A stretch of DNA of 64,000 nt from Lampris incognitus. Taxonomy: Eukaryota > Chordata > Actinopteri > Lampriformes > Lampridae. A model generated the notes under the pieces. The model saw nothing but the letters and a program-made list of their open reading frames with translations, was not told the origin of the DNA and searched no databases. The stretch spans positions 28,301,833 to 28,365,832 of the forward strand of contig NC_079214.1 of NCBI RefSeq assembly GCF_029633865.1, read 5' to 3'. The first letter of the stretch is position 1. Each line of letters starts with the position of its first letter. Shown here in pieces: positions 14,938 to 58,118 of the stretch. Position numbers and translations under genes: made by a program.

Positions 14938-15058
14938 GGGGCATCCGGGTAGCATAGCAGTCTATTCCGTTGGCTACCAACACGGCGATCGCCAGTTCGA
15001 ATCTCCGTGTTACCTCCAGCTTGGTCAGGCGTCCCTACAGACACAATTGGCCGTGTCT

Positions 15059-15060
<2 letters not shown>
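14938..15060 (+). mobile_element. tRNA-derived SINE head, 5' part only
   Basis: The block GGGTAGCATAGCAGTCTATT (A-box region) followed by AGTTCGAATCTCC (B box) and ending in GGCCGTGTCTGG matches the head of the longer copy at 35081-35513. It runs directly into a (TG)n microsatellite (15058-15119), so the 3' body is missing or replaced. Confidence 0.7.
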
Positions 15061-15120
<60 letters not shown>

Positions 15121-23738: not shown

Positions 23739-23929
23739 TGTAGTGATATAACGCCATGTATATCCACTGGAACTACACTAGGTGTTATGTACTACCCGGA
23801 CTGTTATTATGGTTACACCACTACCATGTATGGTTATTACGTCTGCCTACTGAGCCACGATTAAACCTGAGTTCTATAACCCGGTGTGGTCATTGATCCT
23901 CGACCAATACTACCCCAAGTATTACTTCA
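23739..23929 (+). repeat. Gypsy C 5' LTR
   Basis: The LTR starts TGTAGTGATATAACG and ends TATTACTTCA, with TG...CA ends. It differs from the 3' LTR only at G23902 (C in the other copy). It should contain the element promoter and poly-A signal, but no obvious AATAAA is present. Confidence 0.92.
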
Positions 23930-24076
23930 TGGTGGCAGCGGTAAAGTACTCTCTATGAAGAATGAAGATAGACTGATAAAATTGTCCGTGGATAATTTCT
24001 GTCCTCATTCAAGCAAGAGTGCGCCGGAGCTGAGCTAGCCGCAAAGCTAACTAGCTAGCTAGTAACAGGAGACGTC

Positions 24077-26914
24077 ATGGCATCGCATCTACCGACGATG
24101 AATTGGTCCGACCCGGACCTGGGTGAGGCAATTTCACTGTATAAACAGAAAATGACTCTGTATTTAGAAGATGAAGAAATAAATGGCGCAGCTAAACAAG
24201 CTAGGAAAATATGTCGTGGAATCGGAGATGAAGGATTAAAAAGACTGAACGCCAGTGGTCTCACTGATGATGAAAAGAACAAGCCTGCCAAACTATGGGA
24301 CTTCTTTGAAAAACAGCTAAAGTTGAACGTAAATTTCAGAATCCATAGACTGCAACTGATGCAACACAGACAGAAACCAGATGAGAATATTGATGATTTT
24401 GTGACCAGAGCCAGAACACTAGCACAGAAATGTCAGTTTTCAGACGAAGAGCTTAACGAGCATATGATTGAGCTTATTATTGCGAGCACTCCCCATGATG
24501 CCCTGAGGAATGATCTATACAGCAAACCAAAAGGATATTCCTTAGCAGAGGTTCTGGCCGAGGGACCAAAATATGAAGCCCTGACAGCAGGCAATGAACA
24601 GTTAGACAAACTTAGCCTGTCACACAATGAGAGAATCCACGCTGTGGACAGGGACCGCATATGTCGTAACTGTGGGAGAAGCCACAAACCACGTCGATGT
24701 CCTGTATATGATGATGAATGCAATGCATGTGGTGCAAAAGGTCACTGGGAGCGGTGCTGCAGGAAGGCCAAACGAGAGTGCCAGGAACACTCCAGCCAGA
24801 GCAGGAGCGGGGGAAGTAAGTGCCACACACCACAAGACAACAGTGACAAGTGCACAATCAAACAGACAAGCATCTCATTCTTTGGCAACCTGTACACAGA
24901 CAAAGGTATCAAACCTGACCCAGCCAAAATCAGGGACATCCAGAAAATGCCGACACCCCAGAACAAAGATGAACTGAGCAGATTCTTGGGGATGCTGACC
25001 TACCTGTCACCCTACATCCCAAAGTTCGCAGACAAGGCACACACACTGAGGGTGCTGCTGAAAAGTGACGTGCCTTGGACATGGGACACTGACCACCAAA
25101 AGAGCTTTGAGGACCTGAAATCAGTTATCAACGAACATGACTGCCTGAAGTACTATGATGCAAGCACACCTCTGACACTTGAGGTCGATGCATCACAGAA
25201 AGGACTGGGCGTGGCATTAGTGCAGAACAAAAGACCCATAGTTTTTGGCTCAAAGACACTGGACGACTGCCAATCCAGGTACAGCAACATAGAGCAAGGA
25301 ATGCTGGCCATAGTCTATGGAATGCAGCGATACCATACCTACCTGTATGGGAAGTCATTCATTGTAGTTACAGACCACAAACCCCTCGTTACCATATGCA
25401 CAAAGCCACTGCATGCCGCCCCGCCACAGCTTCAGCGAATACTGATAAAAACACAAGGATACAACTACGAGGTCACGTATCGACCAGGAAACCAGATGGT
25501 CCTGGCAGACACACTCAGCCGACTACCCAACCCTGAGAACAACAGCAACATCGAGCTGGACGAGCGCATTGACGGAATAGAGGCAGAAGTCGAGGATCCA
25601 GAGATGCTCACTGTTGCAATGATAAACTTCTCTTCCGAGAAACAGGACGCACTCCGCACGGAAACCACCAGCGACCCCAGACTCAATGCACTGAAAGAGC
25701 TGATCCACCAGGGATGGCCAGACAACATCAAAGCTCTACCAAGACAACTACGTGAGTACTGGTCATTCAGAGACGAGCTCGCAGTTGAAGCAGGAGTCAT
25801 ATTCAAAGGCAGACAGGGGCTCATCCCAGACTCCATGACTGATTCTATACTCGAACAGCTGCATGTAGGACACCAGGGCATCGAAAAGACACGGCGACTG
25901 GCGAGAGAAAGTGTCTACTGGATCAGAATGAACGATGACATCGAAAGAGTCTGCAGGTCATGTAGCGTATGCGTGGAACATCAGGATGCAAATCCAAAGC
26001 AACCTCTCAACCCACACAACACACCGTCAAAACCATGGCAATCCCTAGCTCCTGATCTATTCGAGATCGATGGACATCAGTATTTACTGATTGTGGACAG
26101 ATATTCCAAGTTCCCTCTAGTGGATGAAATGCCCATGCCTGTGTCCAGCCGGGCAGTTGCACAAAAAATGGAAATGTACATGTCTCTTTTTGGAAGGCCT
26201 GACGAGATACTTACAGATAATGGACCCCAGTACACGGGGCACGCGTTCCAGAAATTCACGGCTGACTGGGGAATCAGGCACGTGACAAGCTCACCCCACT
26301 ATCCAAAAAGCAATGGATTCATTGAGAGGCATGTGCGACACATCAAATCCATTGTGAAGAAAACCATGAGACAAGGAGGTAACATACAAGTGGCCTTACT
26401 ACAGGTCAGAGCAACACCCATCGACAGTAAACTAACATCACCAGCAGAACTGATCTTCGGAAGGCCGGTCACCACCCTGCTGCCGAGTCGAGGGGACCCA
26501 GGCAAGGAGGAAAACCGACTCCACCTGGAGCAGAGAACAGCAAACATGAAGGAACATCATGACCGCAGCAGCGGCAGAGCACTACCTCCACTCGGTCCCG
26601 GACAGCACGTATCTGTCCTAAACAAGGAAAAAGGGACTTGGTATCCAGCCACCGTCGTACAAAAGTGCGATGAGCCAAGGAGCTACATTGTGCAAACATC
26701 AAATGGGAACAAACTCAGACGTGGCAGGAGCCACCTGCGGGAAATTCACCACCCCCATACACTGAGGAGCGCAAGAACCCGCTTCACAGAACCTCAACGG
26801 GACACTCATGCAGCTGGAACTTCTTCCAGCCAAACCTGTGAAACACACAAGACAGTACGCACAAGATTTGGAAGAGCTGTTTCCAAACCAGCTCACTACA
26901 AGGACTATGAGTAG
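24077..26914 (+). CDS. Gag-RNase H-integrase polyprotein (PR and RT palm deleted)
   Basis: The 945-residue protein begins with a Gypsy gag (about 1-190) and two zinc knuckles (Cys196/199-His203-Cys208 and Cys215/218-His223-Cys227/228). At about residue 255-262 it jumps straight to the RT connection region (SISFFGNLYTDKGIKPDP, FLGMLTYLSPYIP). RNase H follows with Asp371, Glu406, Asp433 and Asp478. The integrase has its zinc finger (His596, His599, Cys626, Cys629) and a complete catalytic triad Asp660, Asp714, Glu750 (35 residues between the last two). The protease (DTGA) and the RT fingers and palm with the YxDD box are missing, in frame, at about 24825-24855. It can be packaged in principle but cannot reverse-transcribe itself. 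The first ATG after the leader was taken as the start. Confidence 0.9.
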   Translation: MASHLPTMNWSDPDLGEAISLYKQKMTLYLEDEEINGAAKQARKICRGIGDEGLKRLNASGLTDDEKNKPAKLWDFFEKQLKLNVNFRIHRLQLMQHRQKPDENIDDFVTRARTLAQKCQFSDEELNEHMIELIIASTPHDALRNDLYSKPKGYSLAEVLAEGPKYEALTAGNEQLDKLSLSHNERIHAVDRDRICRNCGRSHKPRRCPVYDDECNACGAKGHWERCCRKAKRECQEHSSQSRSGGSKCHTPQDNSDKCTIKQTSISFFGNLYTDKGIKPDPAKIRDIQKMPTPQNKDELSRFLGMLTYLSPYIPKFADKAHTLRVLLKSDVPWTWDTDHQKSFEDLKSVINEHDCLKYYDASTPLTLEVDASQKGLGVALVQNKRPIVFGSKTLDDCQSRYSNIEQGMLAIVYGMQRYHTYLYGKSFIVVTDHKPLVTICTKPLHAAPPQLQRILIKTQGYNYEVTYRPGNQMVLADTLSRLPNPENNSNIELDERIDGIEAEVEDPEMLTVAMINFSSEKQDALRTETTSDPRLNALKELIHQGWPDNIKALPRQLREYWSFRDELAVEAGVIFKGRQGLIPDSMTDSILEQLHVGHQGIEKTRRLARESVYWIRMNDDIERVCRSCSVCVEHQDANPKQPLNPHNTPSKPWQSLAPDLFEIDGHQYLLIVDRYSKFPLVDEMPMPVSSRAVAQKMEMYMSLFGRPDEILTDNGPQYTGHAFQKFTADWGIRHVTSSPHYPKSNGFIERHVRHIKSIVKKTMRQGGNIQVALLQVRATPIDSKLTSPAELIFGRPVTTLLPSRGDPGKEENRLHLEQRTANMKEHHDRSSGRALPPLGPGQHVSVLNKEKGTWYPATVVQKCDEPRSYIVQTSNGNKLRRGRSHLREIHHPHTLRSARTRFTEPQRDTHAAGTSSSQTCETHKTVRTRFGRAVSKPAHYKDYE

Positions 26915-27052
26915 AGACAATCACACACAAAAGGAGGGCTCTGAATATGTTTATTGTTTTTTGAGATGGACAATTCTGAGTGTGTTGTCTAAAAAAAAAA
27001 AAAAGAGAAGGCAACCTCTGTGTAATGAAAAAATTGAAAACTAAACGGGGGA

Positions 27053-27243
27053 TGTAGTGATATAACGCCATGTATATCCACTGGAACTACACTAGGTGTT
27101 ATGTACTACCCGGACTGTTATTATGGTTACACCACTACCATGTATGGTTATTACGTCTGCCTACTGAGCCACGATTAAACCTGAGTTCTATAACCCGGTG
27201 TGGTCATTGATCCTCCACCAATACTACCCCAAGTATTACTTCA
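27053..27243 (+). repeat. Gypsy C 3' LTR
   Basis: 191 bp, the same as the 5' LTR except for one base (C where the 5' copy has G at 23902). It is followed by the CAAAC target duplication. Confidence 0.92.
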
Positions 27244-34276: not shown

Positions 34277-36427
34277 ATGAACAAGAACCATCTCAATACG
34301 AATGAGGAGCTTCGTCATGATGAATATCTCACCAGTCTCAATGGGAAAAACCAAGCCATCTTCCAGGTAGGCTGGAAAAAAAGGAGGATGTAAAAGCTAG
34401 ATCACTGATGTTGAGAATGATCTCAACAAGAGGGGATTATTTCATAAAATTACAAATATCAAATACTTGATATAAAAGGCAAGAGAAGGACTGCTCTAGA
34501 TTAGCATGCATGATTCACATTTTCAGTGAAATTACCATAGCCTCACAATGAGTACTAACTAGTTGCACCACGGTGGCATTGCACCATGATGGTTAGCACT
34601 GTTGCCTCACAGCAAGAAGGTCCTGGGTTCAAACCCCAGGCCATCCCAGGTCCTTTCTGTGTGGAGTTTGCATGTTCTCCCCATGTCTGCATGGGTTTCC
34701 TCCAGGTGATCCAGTTTTCTTCCACCATCAAACAGACATGCATGTTAGGGTTAATACTCCTGCCTGTGCCCCTGACCAAGGCAATGGAAAGAAGAACCAG
34801 AGTTGGTAACCTGGCGGCTGCCCACTTCTCCTAACTACACAGCTAGGATGGGTTAATTGCAGAGGATGAATTTGCCCACGGAGATTAATAAAGCATATCT
34901 TACTCTTAGAATAATTATGAATGCCATATGAATGAATTAAAGCTCATCCATCAAAAGGTTCACTACAAAATATAATATCATATAAGACACAAGCGCAGGC
35001 CCCAAATGCTTGTTTGGGAGTGTTTACTGTACCTGGATCTATATATCTTCTGCCAGCTCTTGTTAGATTGCACGTAAGTGGGTGTCCGGGTAGCGTAGCA
35101 GTCTATTCCATTGATGACCAAAACAGGGATCGCCGGTTCGAATCCCCGTGTAACCTCCGGCTTGGTCGGGTATCCCTACAAACACATTTGGCCGTGTCTG
35201 GGGGGGGGGGGGGGGGGGGGTATGTGTCCTGGTCGCTGCACTAGTGCCTCCTCTGGTCGGCCGGGGCGCCTGTTCGGGGGGGGGGGACTGGGGGGAATAG
35301 CGTGATCCTCCCATGCGCTACATCCTCCTGGCGAAACTCCTCACTGTTAGGTGAAAAGAAGTGGCTGGTGACTCCACATGTATTGGAGGAGACATGTGGT
35401 AGTCTGCAGCCCTCCATGGATCAGCAGAGGGGGTGGCTTGGGAGAGTGGGGTAATTGGCTGGATACAACTGGGGAGGAAAAGGGGGGGGGGTCCAAAAAA
35501 AAAAAACAAGCTCGCACATAAGTGATTTCTTCATCATATTGGTTACAACTGAGCCCTCTGTGAATCGTTGACACCAAAGAAGGATGAAATGTGCTCTTTT
35601 TTCTAAAATGTTATGTTAAGTATTTGGTTGGTATTTTTATTCATTATAGTGCAGCCTTTATCTGAAGTGACTGATGACTGCATCAGCAGAGCAGGCTTTA
35701 AGTCACCAATCACAAACGTTAGTGAAGACTGGAAGGGTCAAAGTAATGTTGCTCTGACAGTAAATGTTACCAAGAGTAAGATTTTATCAGGAACAAAGGG
35801 TAAGTATGTGGTAAGAAAAGAAAAAATAAACGATCAATGAAGCAATTTTTTAAAATTTGTACATGACTGCTGGGATAGGCTCCAGCATCCCCACGACCCT
35901 GACAGCAGAATAAGCGGTTTGGATAATGGATGGATGGATGGACATATTAGCATAGCGGGTTACAAGTAGGAAATGAGGATATGTATGGGAATGTGTAGTG
36001 TGTCTTCAATTTTTAAGCCCATGACGGCGAATAGGGGGTTAAAATGTTCCTCAGCTAGCAGTGAGTTAATGGCTTTTGCCTCTACCATGGGATAAAATTG
36101 CAAGCACCATTTTAATTTGTGTTTTATTTTTATTTGCATTTTATTTTCCATCCTTAGGGGGACAGCAACTTTGTCATCTATATTGATTCTACCCCCAAAT
36201 GGCAAACAAACACGTCTGGCCACATGGGAATGCGACTCCTTCTGCAGTCAGATGGAAACCTGGTGATATACACGCAGGATAAGAGGGTAGTTTGGTCCAC
36301 TGACTCCTACGGCCCCACAGAGTCACAGTGTGTTCGACTGACTCTGACTGACAAAGGCCACCTGGTACTGGACAGAGATGGGATGCAAATCTGGACCTCT
36401 GCCAATTCTACTGGGCTATTATCTTAA
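34277..36427 (+). CDS. Lily-type (B-lectin) mannose-binding lectin A
   Basis: The CDS is join(34277-34366, 36158-36427), 119 residues, no signal peptide. Exon 2 (34247-34366, acceptor TTCTAGCAG, donor GTAGG) encodes MNKNHLNTNEELRHDEYLTS and ends ...IFQ. Exon 3 starts after TCCTTAG and continues in phase 0. The family's sugar-binding motif QxDxNxVxY is complete twice: QGDSNFVIY, created across the splice junction, and QSDGNLVIY (about 62-70). The third repeat (LTDKGHLVLDRDG) is degenerate. Family members in fish (pufflectin-like) bind mannose on microbes or parasites in skin and gill mucus. Intron 2 (1.8 kb) carries two SINE insertions. No AATAAA lies close to the stop; the homologous place reads ATAATA. 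The next AATAAA is near 37060. The gene looks intact. Confidence 0.82.
34565..34905 (+). mobile_element. SINE-like repeat in lectin A intron 2
   Basis: The head ACCATGATGGTTAGCACTGT...GGGTTCAAACCCC has tRNA-like A and B boxes. The end GAATTTGCCCACGGAGATTA...ATAAAGCATAT is shared with 43088-43385. It is absent at the corresponding place of the lectin B intron, so it came after the duplication or was lost from B. Confidence 0.65.
35081..35513 (+). mobile_element. Full-length tRNA-derived SINE with target duplication
   Basis: The tRNA-like head (TAGCGTAGCAGTCTATTCC, GGTTCGAATCCCC) and a body with long G runs lead to a poly-A end. Flanks GCACGTAAGTG (35070-35080) and GCACATAAGTG (35514-35524) form an 11-bp target duplication with one mismatch. 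The empty site is visible in lectin B (CACATAAGTG at about 41945). The copy at 14938-15060 is the head of the same family. Confidence 0.85.
35865..35942 (+). repeat. SINE-like tail with (ATGG)n
   Basis: The tail part GGGATAGGCTCCAGCATCCC ... AATGGATGGATGGATGG is in plus orientation, also inside lectin A intron 2. Confidence 0.6.
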
Positions 36428-41394: not shown

Positions 41395-42785
41395 ATGAAC
41401 GAAAACCATCTCAATATGGGCGGGGAGCTTCGTCAGGGCGAATACCTCACCAGTGTCGACGGGAAACACAGAGCCGTCTTCCAGGTGGAAAACAATGAGA
41501 ATGTAGAAAGCTAGACCGATGACGATGGGACTGACCTCATCTTAAAACCAAGTCATCATCATTTGAAATGAAACAAAATGGTCTCAAACAACATCAACAT
41601 TTATTTTTTTTTAAGATTACAAAAATCAAATACTTTATACAGAATATAGATATATGGTGGTTGAAGTCAGCTACCCCCTTCAATGTGAAGCGCTTTGGGT
41701 GTCTAGAAAAGCGCTATATAAATTGAATTATTATTATAGAATGCGAGAGGAGGGCTGCTGTAGATTAGTATGCAAAACAGCTAATTATTCACATTTTCAG
41801 TGAAAAACATGATAGTCTGAATGAAAGCTCATCAATCAAATGGTTCACTGCCAAGTACAATAGCATCATTTACGATACGAGGGCAGGCCCCACATGGTTT
41901 GGGAGTGTTATCCACTGCCAGCTCATGTTATGTTATGTTGCCTCACATAAGTGATTTCTGCATCATATTGATTTCAAATGAGGCTTCTGTAACAATGTAT
42001 GAGACTGAAAGAGAATGAATTGCACCTTTTATTTCCATTTTTACGTTAGGCATTTGGGTGATAATCTTTTTACATTGTGGTGTAACATCTCTAGAGCGAC
42101 TGATGAGACTGCCTCGGCAGAATGGCCTTACATTCATAGTTCACAAATATTACACAAAGACCGAAATGGTCAAAGTAATTTTGCCCAAAAAAGTAAACGT
42201 TACAAAGAGTCAAGAACAAATGCTTGCCAAGCAGTAGGAAATGAAAAAAAATATTTTAAATTTGTGCATAACATAGTGGGTTACATTACAAGTATAAGGG
42301 AAGACTTGGGGGAGGGAAACATGACTTAGGGCAGATGGGAACAAAGTGCATCTCAAAGACAAGTTTTAACCTGATGATGGCAGACAGGGAGTTGAAATGG
42401 GCCTCCACTATTAGGGAGCCAACTATTTATGCTCATTTTGTTGGTTGAAATGAAAAAAAGTGTTTGTGTTTCATTGTGTGGGTGTTTTATTTCCCAATCC
42501 CAGGATAACGGCAACTTTGCCATCATCTCTGAGTCTTCTGTCACCTGGCAAACAAAGACCTCCGGCAGCCATGGCATGCGAATTGTTCTCCAGGCAGATG
42601 GAAACCTGGTGATGTACACACAATATAGGAAGGTGGTTTGGTCTAGCTACAGCTACAGCTTACTACGAGAGTCAGCACATGTTCGACTGACTCTGACCAA
42701 CGAAGGCCTCCTGGAGCTGGACAGAGATGGGGTGCACATCTGGTCCTCTGCCACATCTGAGAATTGGAGGCCCAAAAACTTGTGA
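41395..42785 (+). CDS. Lily-type (B-lectin) mannose-binding lectin B
   Basis: The CDS is join(41395-41484, 42504-42785), 123 residues, no signal peptide. Exon 2 (41355-41484) follows TTTTTTGCAG, and exon 3 follows CAATCCCAG; the phase is 0, as in copy A. The central motif QADGNLVMY is complete. The first site has decayed (QDNGNFAII), and the third (LTNEGLLELDRDG) is degenerate, so one canonical mannose site remains against two in lectin A. The C-terminal tail (ENWRPKNL) differs from copy A. An AATAAA lies 21 bp after the stop (42806-42811). Intact and probably expressed in the same tissues as copy A (inference from the shared promoter). Confidence 0.82.
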
Positions 42786-53890: not shown

Positions 53891-53908
53891 TTGTATTGCT
53901 TCGGCAAT

Positions 53909-53940
<32 letters not shown>

Positions 53941-53975
53941 AGCATGGCCCCTGCGCAAGGATGACACGCAAAATT
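53891..53975 (+). pseudogene. Retrocopied U6 snRNA, 3'-truncated
   Basis: The segment matches U6 snRNA from its 5' stem (GCTTCGGCA) through TACTAAAATTGGAACGATAC and GCATGGCCCCTGCGCAAGGA to GACACGCAAAATT. It has one base lost after AGAAGAT. The U6 3' domain and terminator are missing. Flanks CTCTCTCCTTGTC (53878-53890) and CTCTCTCCTTATC (53976-53988) form a 13-bp target duplication, so it was inserted by LINE machinery. It is not a functional gene: the 5' bases are altered and no upstream U6 promoter elements are seen. Confidence 0.88.
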
Positions 53976-53988
53976 CTCTCTCCTTATC

Positions 53989-54707
53989 AGTATCTTCGTC
54001 GTCTGTTGTCATAACTTCGTAACTGCAAAACTGGTTAGGACACACACCCATAAACCGTCCTCACTTGAGGAAGCAGTCAGCCGGAGTGGAGGGGGAACGA
54101 GAGGAGAGATAAATTCGATGGCGTGTTGCTGTCGATTTGCAGTCTCTTGAAAGGACATTAGGCATTTGCCAATCATGCGTGCTTGATATTTAGGTGAAGG
54201 TGAGGGGGGGGGTGAATCTGGCGCTTCGATTGGTCGAATTCTTCCTCTTTTGCTTTTCGGCAGGCTAGACACTGCTGCCTTATTCTGGTAGACTTGAGTA
54301 CTGCACGTGCAATTGAAATCGTTGGCGTCAGCAGCTTTTTTTGCGTAGTTTGAGTGACAAATCGTACCCGCGTACTTTGATGTCAAAATGCGTACCTGCT
54401 ACGCAAAATGCGTGACGCGCGCATGCGCGACATGGCAATAACAAGAACCAGGTCGATGCGGGGAAGGAGAACCAAAAAGTCCCACTTCACCTGAACATAA
54501 CACAAGCAAAGAAAGATGAAACAGAACAACATAAAGTGAAATTAAAAAGGACACTGTGCTTGTCTAATCTTCTGCGTCCTCTGATGTGACTTGGTCCGAT
54601 ACCACCGGTTACCACAGTCCATGCGTGTTGCCACGTACACAAATGAAAAAGATGGCACCTTCAAATCATAATCCATCTAAAAGGTGAGTATTCTGCCCTA
54701 GCAATTG
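53989..54707. other. Unassigned sequence with CpG-rich patch
   Basis: A minus-strand frame (54009-54386, 125 codons) shows no recognisable domain, and its upstream part is repeat-like. A CpG-rich patch is at about 54400-54440. Nothing further can be supported. Confidence 0.45.
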
Positions 54708-54841
54708 TGTCCTAACAAGGCGTAGGCAGATGGCGAACGAGAATGAATGTAGCTCGAGCTTGACATCTTCTTCAAATGGAAGTTTATTGGAGACTTTACT
54801 CCATACATTCGTTTTTCCCTTTTTTGCCCCCATAAAACTAA

Positions 54842-54976
54842 TGTAAACTACTAATAAAACACATTAGTCCCTAGCTAACGGGTCTGACCCTTAGGCCGAG
54901 CGGTTAGTGATGTCGCCTTGTGGTGCAGTACACCCCGTATCGAATCCCGCACCGGGCAAGAAAATAACCGGTTACA
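54842..54976 (+). repeat. Left terminal repeat with tRNA-like Pol III boxes
   Basis: The 135-bp left copy. Its A box is damaged (TTAGGCCGAGCGG), while the B box GTATCGAATCC is kept. Distance between the boxes is about 45 bp, within the range for tRNA genes. It differs from the right copy at six positions. Confidence 0.75.
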
Positions 54977-55069
54977 TTGGTGGGATCCGGAAGTGTGCAG
55001 ATCCTCTGAAGTCTCTTCGGAGCGCGGGAAGAACAAGCGCGAGGGCACGCTTCCGGGGAGGGTGACGAC

Positions 55070-55204
55070 TGTAAACTACTAATAAGACACATTAGTCCCT
55101 AGCTAACGGGTCTGACCCTTTAGCCGAGCGGTTAGTAATGTCGCCTTGTGGTGCAGTACACCCCGTATCGAATCCCGCACCGGTCAAGAAAATAACCGGC
55201 TACA
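55070..55204 (+). repeat. Right terminal repeat with tRNA-like Pol III boxes
   Basis: The 135-bp right copy with an intact A box (TAGCCGAGCGG) and B-box-like GTATCGAATCC. The tRNA-like part resembles tRNA-derived SINE heads. It does not show a full cloverleaf that I can support. Confidence 0.75.
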
Positions 55205-55749
55205 CTAAAGAAACACAAATAAGGAATACAATTACTAAGTACCCAAATAGTCTTTTCACATTACCTATTTCATATGCACACAAACTAGCCCACACACATT
55301 CACACGCAGATAGCTAACTAGCATAGGCTACACGAGGTCAAATAATGAGCTACGCTAACATGAAATAACATGCTTATAGCTATATACTCACGTAAGTGTT
55401 AATTGTGATATTTCCATATAACAACAAAAAAACCAACAATACTTACGGACGTATCGCTCCAAGGATCCGACGCTTATAGAACAACTGTCTTTCTCTGCTT
55501 GAAACACGTGGGAACTGAACTCGTTCACTCCAAACAACAGCTACCGACACCGTCATTTACACTAACACACAGACACAAAATGCAATACCCAGTCCCACCA
55601 CTAGGTGTTACATAGGCACCGCAAAGAATGCGGAGTAGCTGACTAACATAGGCCTAGAACAGACTGAATACAACAAACCTTTAAATTTCTCAGTCAGAAC
55701 ACTCCCCGTCTGGCGTAATTACTATTATGCCACTATACCATTATTATTT

Positions 55750-57725
55750 CTCTGTCAATTATTATAATTAGCTAGAAGCACAACTAAGTCATTAATAGGT
55801 CTTCGGTACTCTTTCACATTTCCTTGCTTGGCAGTCTTCACCATGACATTACGGACTCGGTTGTCACTGCTTGGCATGGTCGGTTGGGTTCAGCTCAGTT
55901 TGGACGTAATGCCACTGGCTCTGTGTGGTGGAATTCCTTATGCGTGTAACCCTGTTGGCCACATACATGTGAAATCTCCTTGTGGTGTTGTGAATGTAGC
56001 CGAGTACTACACGGCTGTCTGTGTAGAACTTGACATGCAGCTCTGTGTCTAACTCTTCTTTTATGAGCTCAACAGCGAGCACTGAGGCGCACAGCTCCAG
56101 GCGTGGGATAGTGTGAGCAGGAACTGGAGCCAGCTTCGACTTGCTCATCACAAACCCCACTTGACATTGTCCATCTGAGTCTATGACTCGCACATATGCC
56201 ACAGCAGCTATGGCCAGAACAGACCCGTCTGAAAAGATGAACAGCTCCCTAGAATGAGCCTGTGAGAGAGAGATTGGAACATATGGCCTTGGGATGTGTA
56301 GGTGTTCAAGGTCAGCAAGAGATGTAGTCCATGCTCCCCATTGGGCCCTTTTATCTGCTGGGAGAGGCATGTCCCACTTTTGTTGCATTGATGAGAGTTC
56401 TCTCACAAGAGCCTTTCCATGCATAGTGACAGGAGAGACAAATCCCAAGGGGCTGTACAAGCTATTGACAGTGGAAAGCGTTTCTCTTCATGTGAATGGT
56501 TTGACATCTCTTGAAACTTTGAATGTGAAACAGTCATTTTTAAGGTTCCAGCTTATGCCGAGACTGCGCTGAAGAGGCAGCGGATCAGCACTCAAATCCA
56601 AGTCTTTGAGCTCCTTTGCTCTGTCCTCTGGTGCAAAGGCCTCCATGACTGTGGCGCTGTTGGAGGCCATCTTGTGGAGTTTCAAGTTCGCCTCCGCCAA
56701 CATTTCCTGTGTGCGTTTCAGGAGGTCAACAGCTTCTTCCTCGCTGGGAACAGATGCAATGCCATCATCAACATAAAAGTTGCGCAGCACAAATTCTTTA
56801 GTGTCTGTGCCATGTTCTGCCTCACCATGCTCTGCTGTGCATTGCAATCCATATATGGCAACAGATGGTGACTGACTGTTTCCAAAGACATGTACAGTCA
56901 TCCTGTAATCAATAATCTCCTCTTCAGGGCAGTTGTATTTGTGCCACAGAAAGAATTGTTGAGGTTGGGCCCTCTCAGCAGAACATCATTGAGTGAGATG
57001 TCATTATACTGGGCACTCGAGTCGAACACCACTCTGATTTTATCGGGCTTTTGGGGATGGTAAACGCCAAATATCAACATTCCTCACCTGGCTGCACAGG
57101 CGGAGTGGGTTCTGCTTGATGGTTTTCGATTACCTTTTGCATGAAGTCAAAGAAATGTTCTTTCATTCCTGGTTTCTTTTGGAAGGTGCGTTGCAACGAG
57201 AACAGCCTCTGCTTCGCTTGCTCTTTGTTGTTCGGAAGTCGGCTCTGTGGCAAGTGAAAAGGCAATGGCGTCACCCAGTGGTTGTCTTCAGCAAGATACA
57301 CCTCTTTGTTCATCCAAGAAGATGTTATCTTCAATTGACAGGGCTGTCTTCTCGTCGTCTGCAGTCCTCAAGGAAACATCATCTTGGAGACAGCTTGTAT
57401 CAGCAATGAGACCTTTGGAGGGTCTGGAGTAACACAGCGAGGCAGGTAAGTACTGAAGAGGATGAGAACTCACTCGCTCTTTCACATGGACACTCTTAGA
57501 GCATGGTGTGAAGAACGAGGCTCTGCCATTTGGGAGTATGTTTGTTTTGCAGACATTGACATCAGTAGGCTGGTGAGGTCTATCTAGGCAGATCTCTCCT
57601 ATGATGACCCAGCCCAAATCCAAGCTCTGTGCATGGTGTGTTGTGGGGGCCATTATGCTGCTCAGGTACCTTGTGCAGAAGGATCTGAGCGCTGGGATCT
57701 GGAGGTGGGATCTTGTCCCAGAGTT
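55750..57725 (-). pseudogene. BEL/Pao pol: protease, RT, RNase H; integrase deleted
   Basis: On the minus strand the order is a protease C-terminal part (THHAQSLDLGWVIIGEICL, 57653-57288), RT N-terminal part (PDKIRVVFDSSAQYNDISLN, 57080-56898), RT catalytic box FYVDDGIAS (about 56780), a linker (SLGISWNLKNDCFTF), and the RT/RNase H part YSPLGFVSPVTMHGK ... FIFSDGS ... KFYTDSRVVLGYIHN ... LNPTDHA (56460-55864). The next codons, after a shift, are SDNRVRNVMVKTAKQG...RPINDLVVLL (about 55850-55760), the extreme C-terminus of a BEL polyprotein. The integrase is therefore missing between them, at about 55860. Several frameshifts and stops are present. Gag was not found. Confidence 0.82.
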
Positions 57726-58118
57726 ATAAGTAAAGCTTCATAAACCCACGTATCTGCATGATCATTTCAACATGGTGTCAGAACTGGACTCAGCGGCAGC
57801 CAACAGTGTAATGTTCCTTCTTATAAATGAAGAAACGTGGGTTCAACAATTACAACTATTTATTAAAGTACTGTGACAACTCAGCCAATACGTATGTCCA
57901 TCAAGTATCGTGTGGTGTCTTCTTCTGCCGGAATCCTACAGACTACTAAATTTGTGGCTACTGCCCCTCAGGTGGTAAGTATTGGTATAAATATTAATAT
58001 CAACTCCTATCATCACATCCCCTTTCCTTTAGATTTAGCTATACACAAACTATTCATCTAGCCTCAGTAGCAACTTCAAACTGTAATAAAAACATTCTAG
58101 TCACCCACAAGCGTGAAC
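57726..58118. other. LTR-like end and unassigned sequence
   Basis: The block ending ATCATTTCAACA followed by TGGTGTCAGAACTGG (about 57758-57785) looks like an LTR 3' end plus a primer-binding site in plus orientation. No internal region of a plus-strand element follows. The rest is unassigned. Confidence 0.35.

Follow-up and report, generated by a model that had tools for sequence, protein, structure and literature searches.

Helenus elements are TRIMs whose LTRs hold tRNA-derived sequence (Kojima 2024, PMC10886601). The paper reports lengths of 311–1263 bp, 4-bp target duplications in the animal families, and conservation across the group of the sequence around the A and B boxes; among fishes it places Helenus in coelacanth, sturgeon and paddlefish, and in zebrafish as LTR-11_DR with relatives in other Ostariophysi, and a figure legend aligns fish Helenus to a tRNA-Val. 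A Gypsy element is proposed as the helper of the animal families, and Pol III transcription of Helenus is left unproved in that account (PMC10886601). Sequences derived from other Pol III genes are reported from two further groups: the Cassandra TRIMs of plants contain 5S rRNA sequence with a terminator, the transcript ending inside the 3′ LTR (PMC10886601, PMC7215508), and the Ajax TRIMs of ribbon worms contain part of 5S rRNA and make 5-bp duplications (PMC10886601). Among the titles and abstract openings covered by our literature search, PMC10886601 is the sole description of tRNA-bearing TRIMs, and a search of the literature with the sequence letters of the element described below returned no paper. 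An earlier note on this DNA, made from the letters alone, knew of no described fish family with such a layout; that statement is superseded by Kojima 2024 (PMC10886601), which named Helenus and included in it zebrafish LTR-11_DR and elements of other fishes, so that the novelty of kind falls.

We have examined a candidate for such an element in a 64-kb window, by which we mean the whole stretch of DNA analysed here. Judged by the published description, it is very probably a single ageing copy of a Helenus-type TRIM, the one copy known here. Self-comparison and inspection of the flanks reproduce the coordinates and counts of two 135-bp direct repeats with six differences, as well as the 93-bp interior and the outer CTAA duplication (Table 1). 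The mismatches between the two LTRs comprise four transitions and two transversions (K2P 0.046), and the BLAST E value of the pair, about 2e-59, excludes a chance origin. CTAA lies outside both LTRs and brackets the entire unit, which spans 363 bp (54838–55208 with its target duplications), but it does not flank either repeat singly: the 4-mers on the two sides of the 5′ LTR alone are CTAA and TTGG, and those of the 3′ LTR alone are CGAC and CTAA. A 4-bp match at fixed ends is expected by chance at about 1/256, assuming equal base frequencies. The longest stop-free run in the six frames of the element is 66 codons, and at its total length it falls within the definition of a TRIM as a non-coding LTR pair of less than 1000 bp. 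The TRIM anatomy that the earlier note had proposed is upheld: the repeats are paired, they begin with TG and end with CA, and a 4-bp duplication lies outside the pair. Queries with the LTR and with the interior revealed no further copy and no solo LTR within the 64-kb window, which contains one pair only.

Table 1. Features of the TRIM and its immediate flanks (positions in the window).
Feature	Position	Strand	Basis
Left target site duplication, CTAA	54838..54841	.	Self-comparison, flank check
5′ LTR, 135 bp, TG...CA	54842..54976	+	Self-comparison
Box A-like region of 5′ LTR, TAGGCCGAGCGGT, one position below that of 3′ LTR	54892..54904	+	Box scan
Box B-like site of 5′ LTR, GTATCGAATCC, 8/10	54937..54947	+	Box scan
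Interior, 93 bp, without long reading frame	54977..55069	+	Self-comparison, frame scan
Weak PBS-like start, TGGTGGGATCC, 1 bp past LTR	54978..54988	+	tRNA 3′-end comparison
Interior stem, 13 pairs, enclosing smaller predicted hairpins	54986..55057	+	Folding, stem search
Polypurine-like run, GGGGAGGG, 7 bp before 3′ LTR, not abutting	55055..55062	+	Sequence inspection
3′ LTR, 135 bp, TG...CA, six mismatches to 5′ LTR	55070..55204	+	Self-comparison
Box A-like site of 3′ LTR, TAGCCGAGCGGT	55121..55132	+	Box scan
Box B-like site of 3′ LTR, GTATCGAATCC	55165..55175	+	Box scan
Right target site duplication, CTAA	55205..55208	.	Self-comparison, flank check
First downstream TTTT, outside element, nearest candidate Pol III terminator of a predicted read-through transcript	55253..55256	+	T-run scan

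SINEs are single units with a LINE-derived or simple tail and a duplication of their own. The earlier note had set against its own reading the alternative that the pair is simply two nearby tRNA-derived SINE copies. These would lie in the same orientation and 93 bp apart by chance, and although each repeat does contain tRNA-like boxes and tRNA-SINE-like units are found elsewhere in the window, we consider this very improbable: the CTAA duplication encloses the pair and not the single units, with no 4-mer duplication around either repeat, both units have identical TG...CA ends with no tail by sequence inspection, and LTRs would be expected to show just these ends and to be repeats of equal, full length. 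Less credible still is a local 135-bp duplication arising by chance or made in assembly, without any LTR biology; the occurrence of a single pair in the window would suit such an origin, but it would leave to coincidence the TG...CA ends, the exact outer 4-bp duplication and the tRNA content.

The yardstick for tRNA likeness was a hand-compiled set of 28 vertebrate tRNA genes, and the controls were 300 dinucleotide shuffles of each LTR. Among these tRNAs the best match to both LTRs is tRNA-His, with scores of 43 for the 5′ LTR and 46 for the 3′ LTR; not one of the 300 shuffles of either LTR reaches the observed score (the mean best shuffle score is about 26), and the reverse strands score at most 24 and 23. 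The resemblance stretches from box A to box B in both LTRs, and because the LTRs are mutual copies it counts as one observation. By the same measure the element has the feature by which Helenus is defined, namely LTRs with sequence derived from a tRNA. A functional tRNA within the LTR was considered and rejected, as ARAGORN calls no tRNA gene over the 64-kb window and a search of Rfam around the element at E values up to 10 gives no tRNA match, its single row being an unrelated microRNA model (E 5.5). Folding gives z scores of −0.01 for the 5′ LTR, −1.81 for the 3′ LTR and −0.04 for the tRNA-like part at 54880–54960, and a tRNA shape is without clear support. Since the similarity exceeds that of the shuffles but comes with neither an ARAGORN or Rfam tRNA nor support from folding, we take the stretch to be tRNA-derived and not a tRNA gene. 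The tRNA-like gene that had been claimed thus survives as a tRNA-derived stretch, but not as a gene; and although tRNA-His is the best match, we would not press the isotype.

Box A agrees with the consensus at all seven specified positions in the 3′ LTR and at six of the seven in the 5′ LTR, while box B is the same in both LTRs and agrees at eight of ten. Against the box A reported for most Helenus families, TRGCY followed by YGG, the 3′ LTR fits (TAGCC...CGG) and the 5′ LTR is one base off (AGGCC...CGG); the box B sequence GGTTC, reported as conserved in Helenus and standing outside its definition, is replaced by GTATC in both LTRs. The A and B boxes that had been described in each repeat are present, but comparable pairs occur elsewhere in the window: our scan returned 37 rows of box pairs scoring at least 14 (23 on the plus strand and 14 on the minus strand), four of these rows being the element's own and some of the others overlapping, and the LTRs themselves score 14 (5′) and 15 (3′). 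By themselves the boxes are unremarkable for this window, and they are weaker evidence than the tRNA alignment. Elsewhere in the window, two tRNA-SINE-like units (35085–35202 and 14944–15061) are 86% alike over 118 bp, and the unit at 35085 has a box B with all ten specified positions, better than that of the TRIM.

The interior opens with TTGGTGGGATCC. Counted from the TGG of the PBS-like start, the longest run of consecutive matches is six (Leu-AAG, Ile-AAT and Ala-AGC) among the ten tRNAs listed of the 28 in the set. The best local score, 17, is obtained with Leu-AAG (four of 300 letter shuffles are as good) and with Ser-GCT (seven of 300), these frequencies being uncorrected for the 28 tRNAs; the Leu-AAG match is ungapped and identical at 10 of 11 positions, with a shift of eight bases into the T-arm complement. 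Such short and shifted matches are too weak for naming a primer tRNA, and we note that the PBS of bivalve TRIMs is likewise reported as unclear (PMC6934838). Self-priming, with the PBS region pairing with the LTR's own tRNA-like stretch, was also considered and rejected, as its best score is 13, a value attained in 552 of 2000 shuffles of the LTR as well as in 401 of 1981 random 135-mers from the window. At the other end of the interior the polypurine-like run stops short of the 3′ LTR, in contrast to the Gypsy element found elsewhere in this DNA, whose purine run directly abuts its LTR. Of the PBS-like and PPT-like interior ends that the earlier note had seen, the first is a poor match and the second is displaced. 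Both findings argue against an element that is clean and intact; the departures may reflect damage in the present copy, or alternatively they may be a trait of a subfamily.

The longest unbroken stem in the interior, with G-U pairs allowed, has 13 pairs and joins 54986–54998 with 55045–55057, and a stem of this length is reached by seven of 1000 dinucleotide shuffles of the interior. The folding energy of the interior is modestly low (z −1.96, with 8 of 200 shuffles as good), and a repeat finder using exact seeds of nine detected no inverted repeat within it. In the main text of the Helenus paper (PMC10886601), where we looked for hairpin, stem and packaging, there is no passage on an interior stem. 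The inner domain of bivalve TRIMs is reported to contain inverted repeats with the potential to fold into a hairpin (PMC6934838), so the stem is not new in kind, and we regard it as a modest, testable addition to the finding of the TRIM.

There is no TTTT on the plus strand inside the element, and a Pol III transcript starting from the 5′ LTR would therefore be predicted to read through the 3′ LTR. In the explanation that we favor, the tRNA-derived boxes of the 5′ LTR would recruit TFIIIC and Pol III, a step that we hold to be reasonably probable. Transcription would begin slightly upstream of box A and proceed through the 3′ LTR to a T-run in the flank, the first being at 55253, giving an RNA that holds the R-U5 sequence twice and that could thus be copied and inserted by the reverse transcriptase and integrase of an autonomous Gypsy-type element. 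Copying would be primed by a tRNA, insertion would leave the 4-bp duplication, and the structured interior may aid packaging; the insertion site of the present copy was probably the 3′ portion of a Pao element, now decayed, and mutations have accumulated in the copy since. Within the same Helenus-type identity, and disputing the promoter step only, there is a less likely course of events in which the tRNA-like stretch never was, or no longer is, a working Pol III promoter, and transcription is by Pol II from signals in the LTR. The imperfect boxes (eight of ten positions for box B, and six of seven for box A of the 5′ LTR) and the lack of a four-T run in the element would agree with this, as would an AATAAA at 54853 in the 5′ LTR, though the 3′ LTR differs at the corresponding place. 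Set against it are the likeness to tRNA from box A to box B, far beyond that of shuffles in both LTRs, and the published conservation of Helenus around the boxes (PMC10886601). Should the family be active, then in its host, plausibly a fish, one could ask experimentally whether Pol III is able to make the template of a retrotransposon with tRNA-like LTRs.

The surroundings of the TRIM include other mobile elements. PF05380, the family of Pao peptidases, is matched on the minus strand at 55864–56487 (E 3.3e-39), and downstream of this match are a purine run and then, at about 55701, TGTTCTGACTG, a sequence resembling the beginning of a Pao 3′ LTR. We place a decayed Pao-type element at 55201–57740 of the window, minus strand, with a presumed 3′ LTR that contains the TRIM. 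The TRIM was probably inserted inside that LTR, a position that we infer, as self-comparison finds no second copy of the stretch in the window. Farther away, at 23739–27243, is a young Gypsy-type element with 191-bp LTRs that are 99.5% identical, TGGTGGCAGCGG directly after the 5′ LTR, a purine run against the 3′ LTR and a 5-bp duplication, CAAAC. Its 951-aa open frame has matches to RNase H and integrase and to no reverse transcriptase family at E values up to 0.001, so that this copy may have suffered an internal deletion and may have moved recently. We did not adopt it as the helper of the TRIM, as its duplication is of 5 bp and the one match that it makes to parts of the TRIM extends over 10 bases, a size to be expected by chance. 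A sequence resembling U6 snRNA, with 84.5 bits over the whole of the model, lies at 53895–53996, some 850 bp before the TRIM; it has no T-run after it and is thus probably a pseudogene. An open frame at 42396–42785 has a weak match to the mannose-binding B_lectin family (28.8 bits, under the curated cut-off of 32.4), and part of it is repeated at 36116–36404 with 74% identity.

Searches outside the window covered collections of viruses, prokaryotes and plasmids, in which the absence of matches is uninformative on fishes. Three exact patterns gave no match in viral contigs, one LTR pattern gave none in prokaryotic genome contigs, and the whole element as a query gave none among plasmids and phages. 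A 17-mer with one match in a viral contig showed no wider resemblance by eye and was taken as chance, as were 15 bacterial records returned from plasmids by the interior at E values up to 10, none of which covers 80% of the query.

We conclude that the element appears to be of a kind already known, published in 2024, with a small set of unexplained departures in its replication signals, and that it constitutes an independent sighting of the Helenus-type group from raw sequence alone. A bolder proposal would assign it to a lineage of Helenus in fishes beyond the hosts published so far, in which the replication signals are altered: the primer site would have ceased to fit the 3′ end of an ordinary tRNA, the purine tract would be displaced, a Pol III terminator would be lacking, and the interior with its 13-pair stem would act as a packaging or dimer signal for a helper retrotransposon; we think this improbable. 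As in the animal branch of Helenus, there is a miniature LTR pair, each LTR having a tRNA-derived stretch with boxes A and B, a 4-bp duplication (here CTAA), a length of 363 bp within the published range, and no evident functional tRNA. The differences from Helenus lie in box B, which is reported as GGTTC there and reads GTATC here, and in the PBS, which is not clearly assignable to His, Leu or Lys. Cassandra is likewise a TRIM with a stretch derived from a Pol III gene in each LTR, but that stretch is 5S rRNA with a terminator, whereas the present element is tRNA-like and has no four-T run inside. Ajax too is a TRIM in which the LTR resembles a Pol III promoter, and differs in its source, part of 5S rRNA, and in its duplications of 5 bp instead of 4 bp. 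The tRNA-derived SINEs (SINE2) share with the element boxes A and B that come from a tRNA, but their tail and their duplication around each unit are both features that it does not show.
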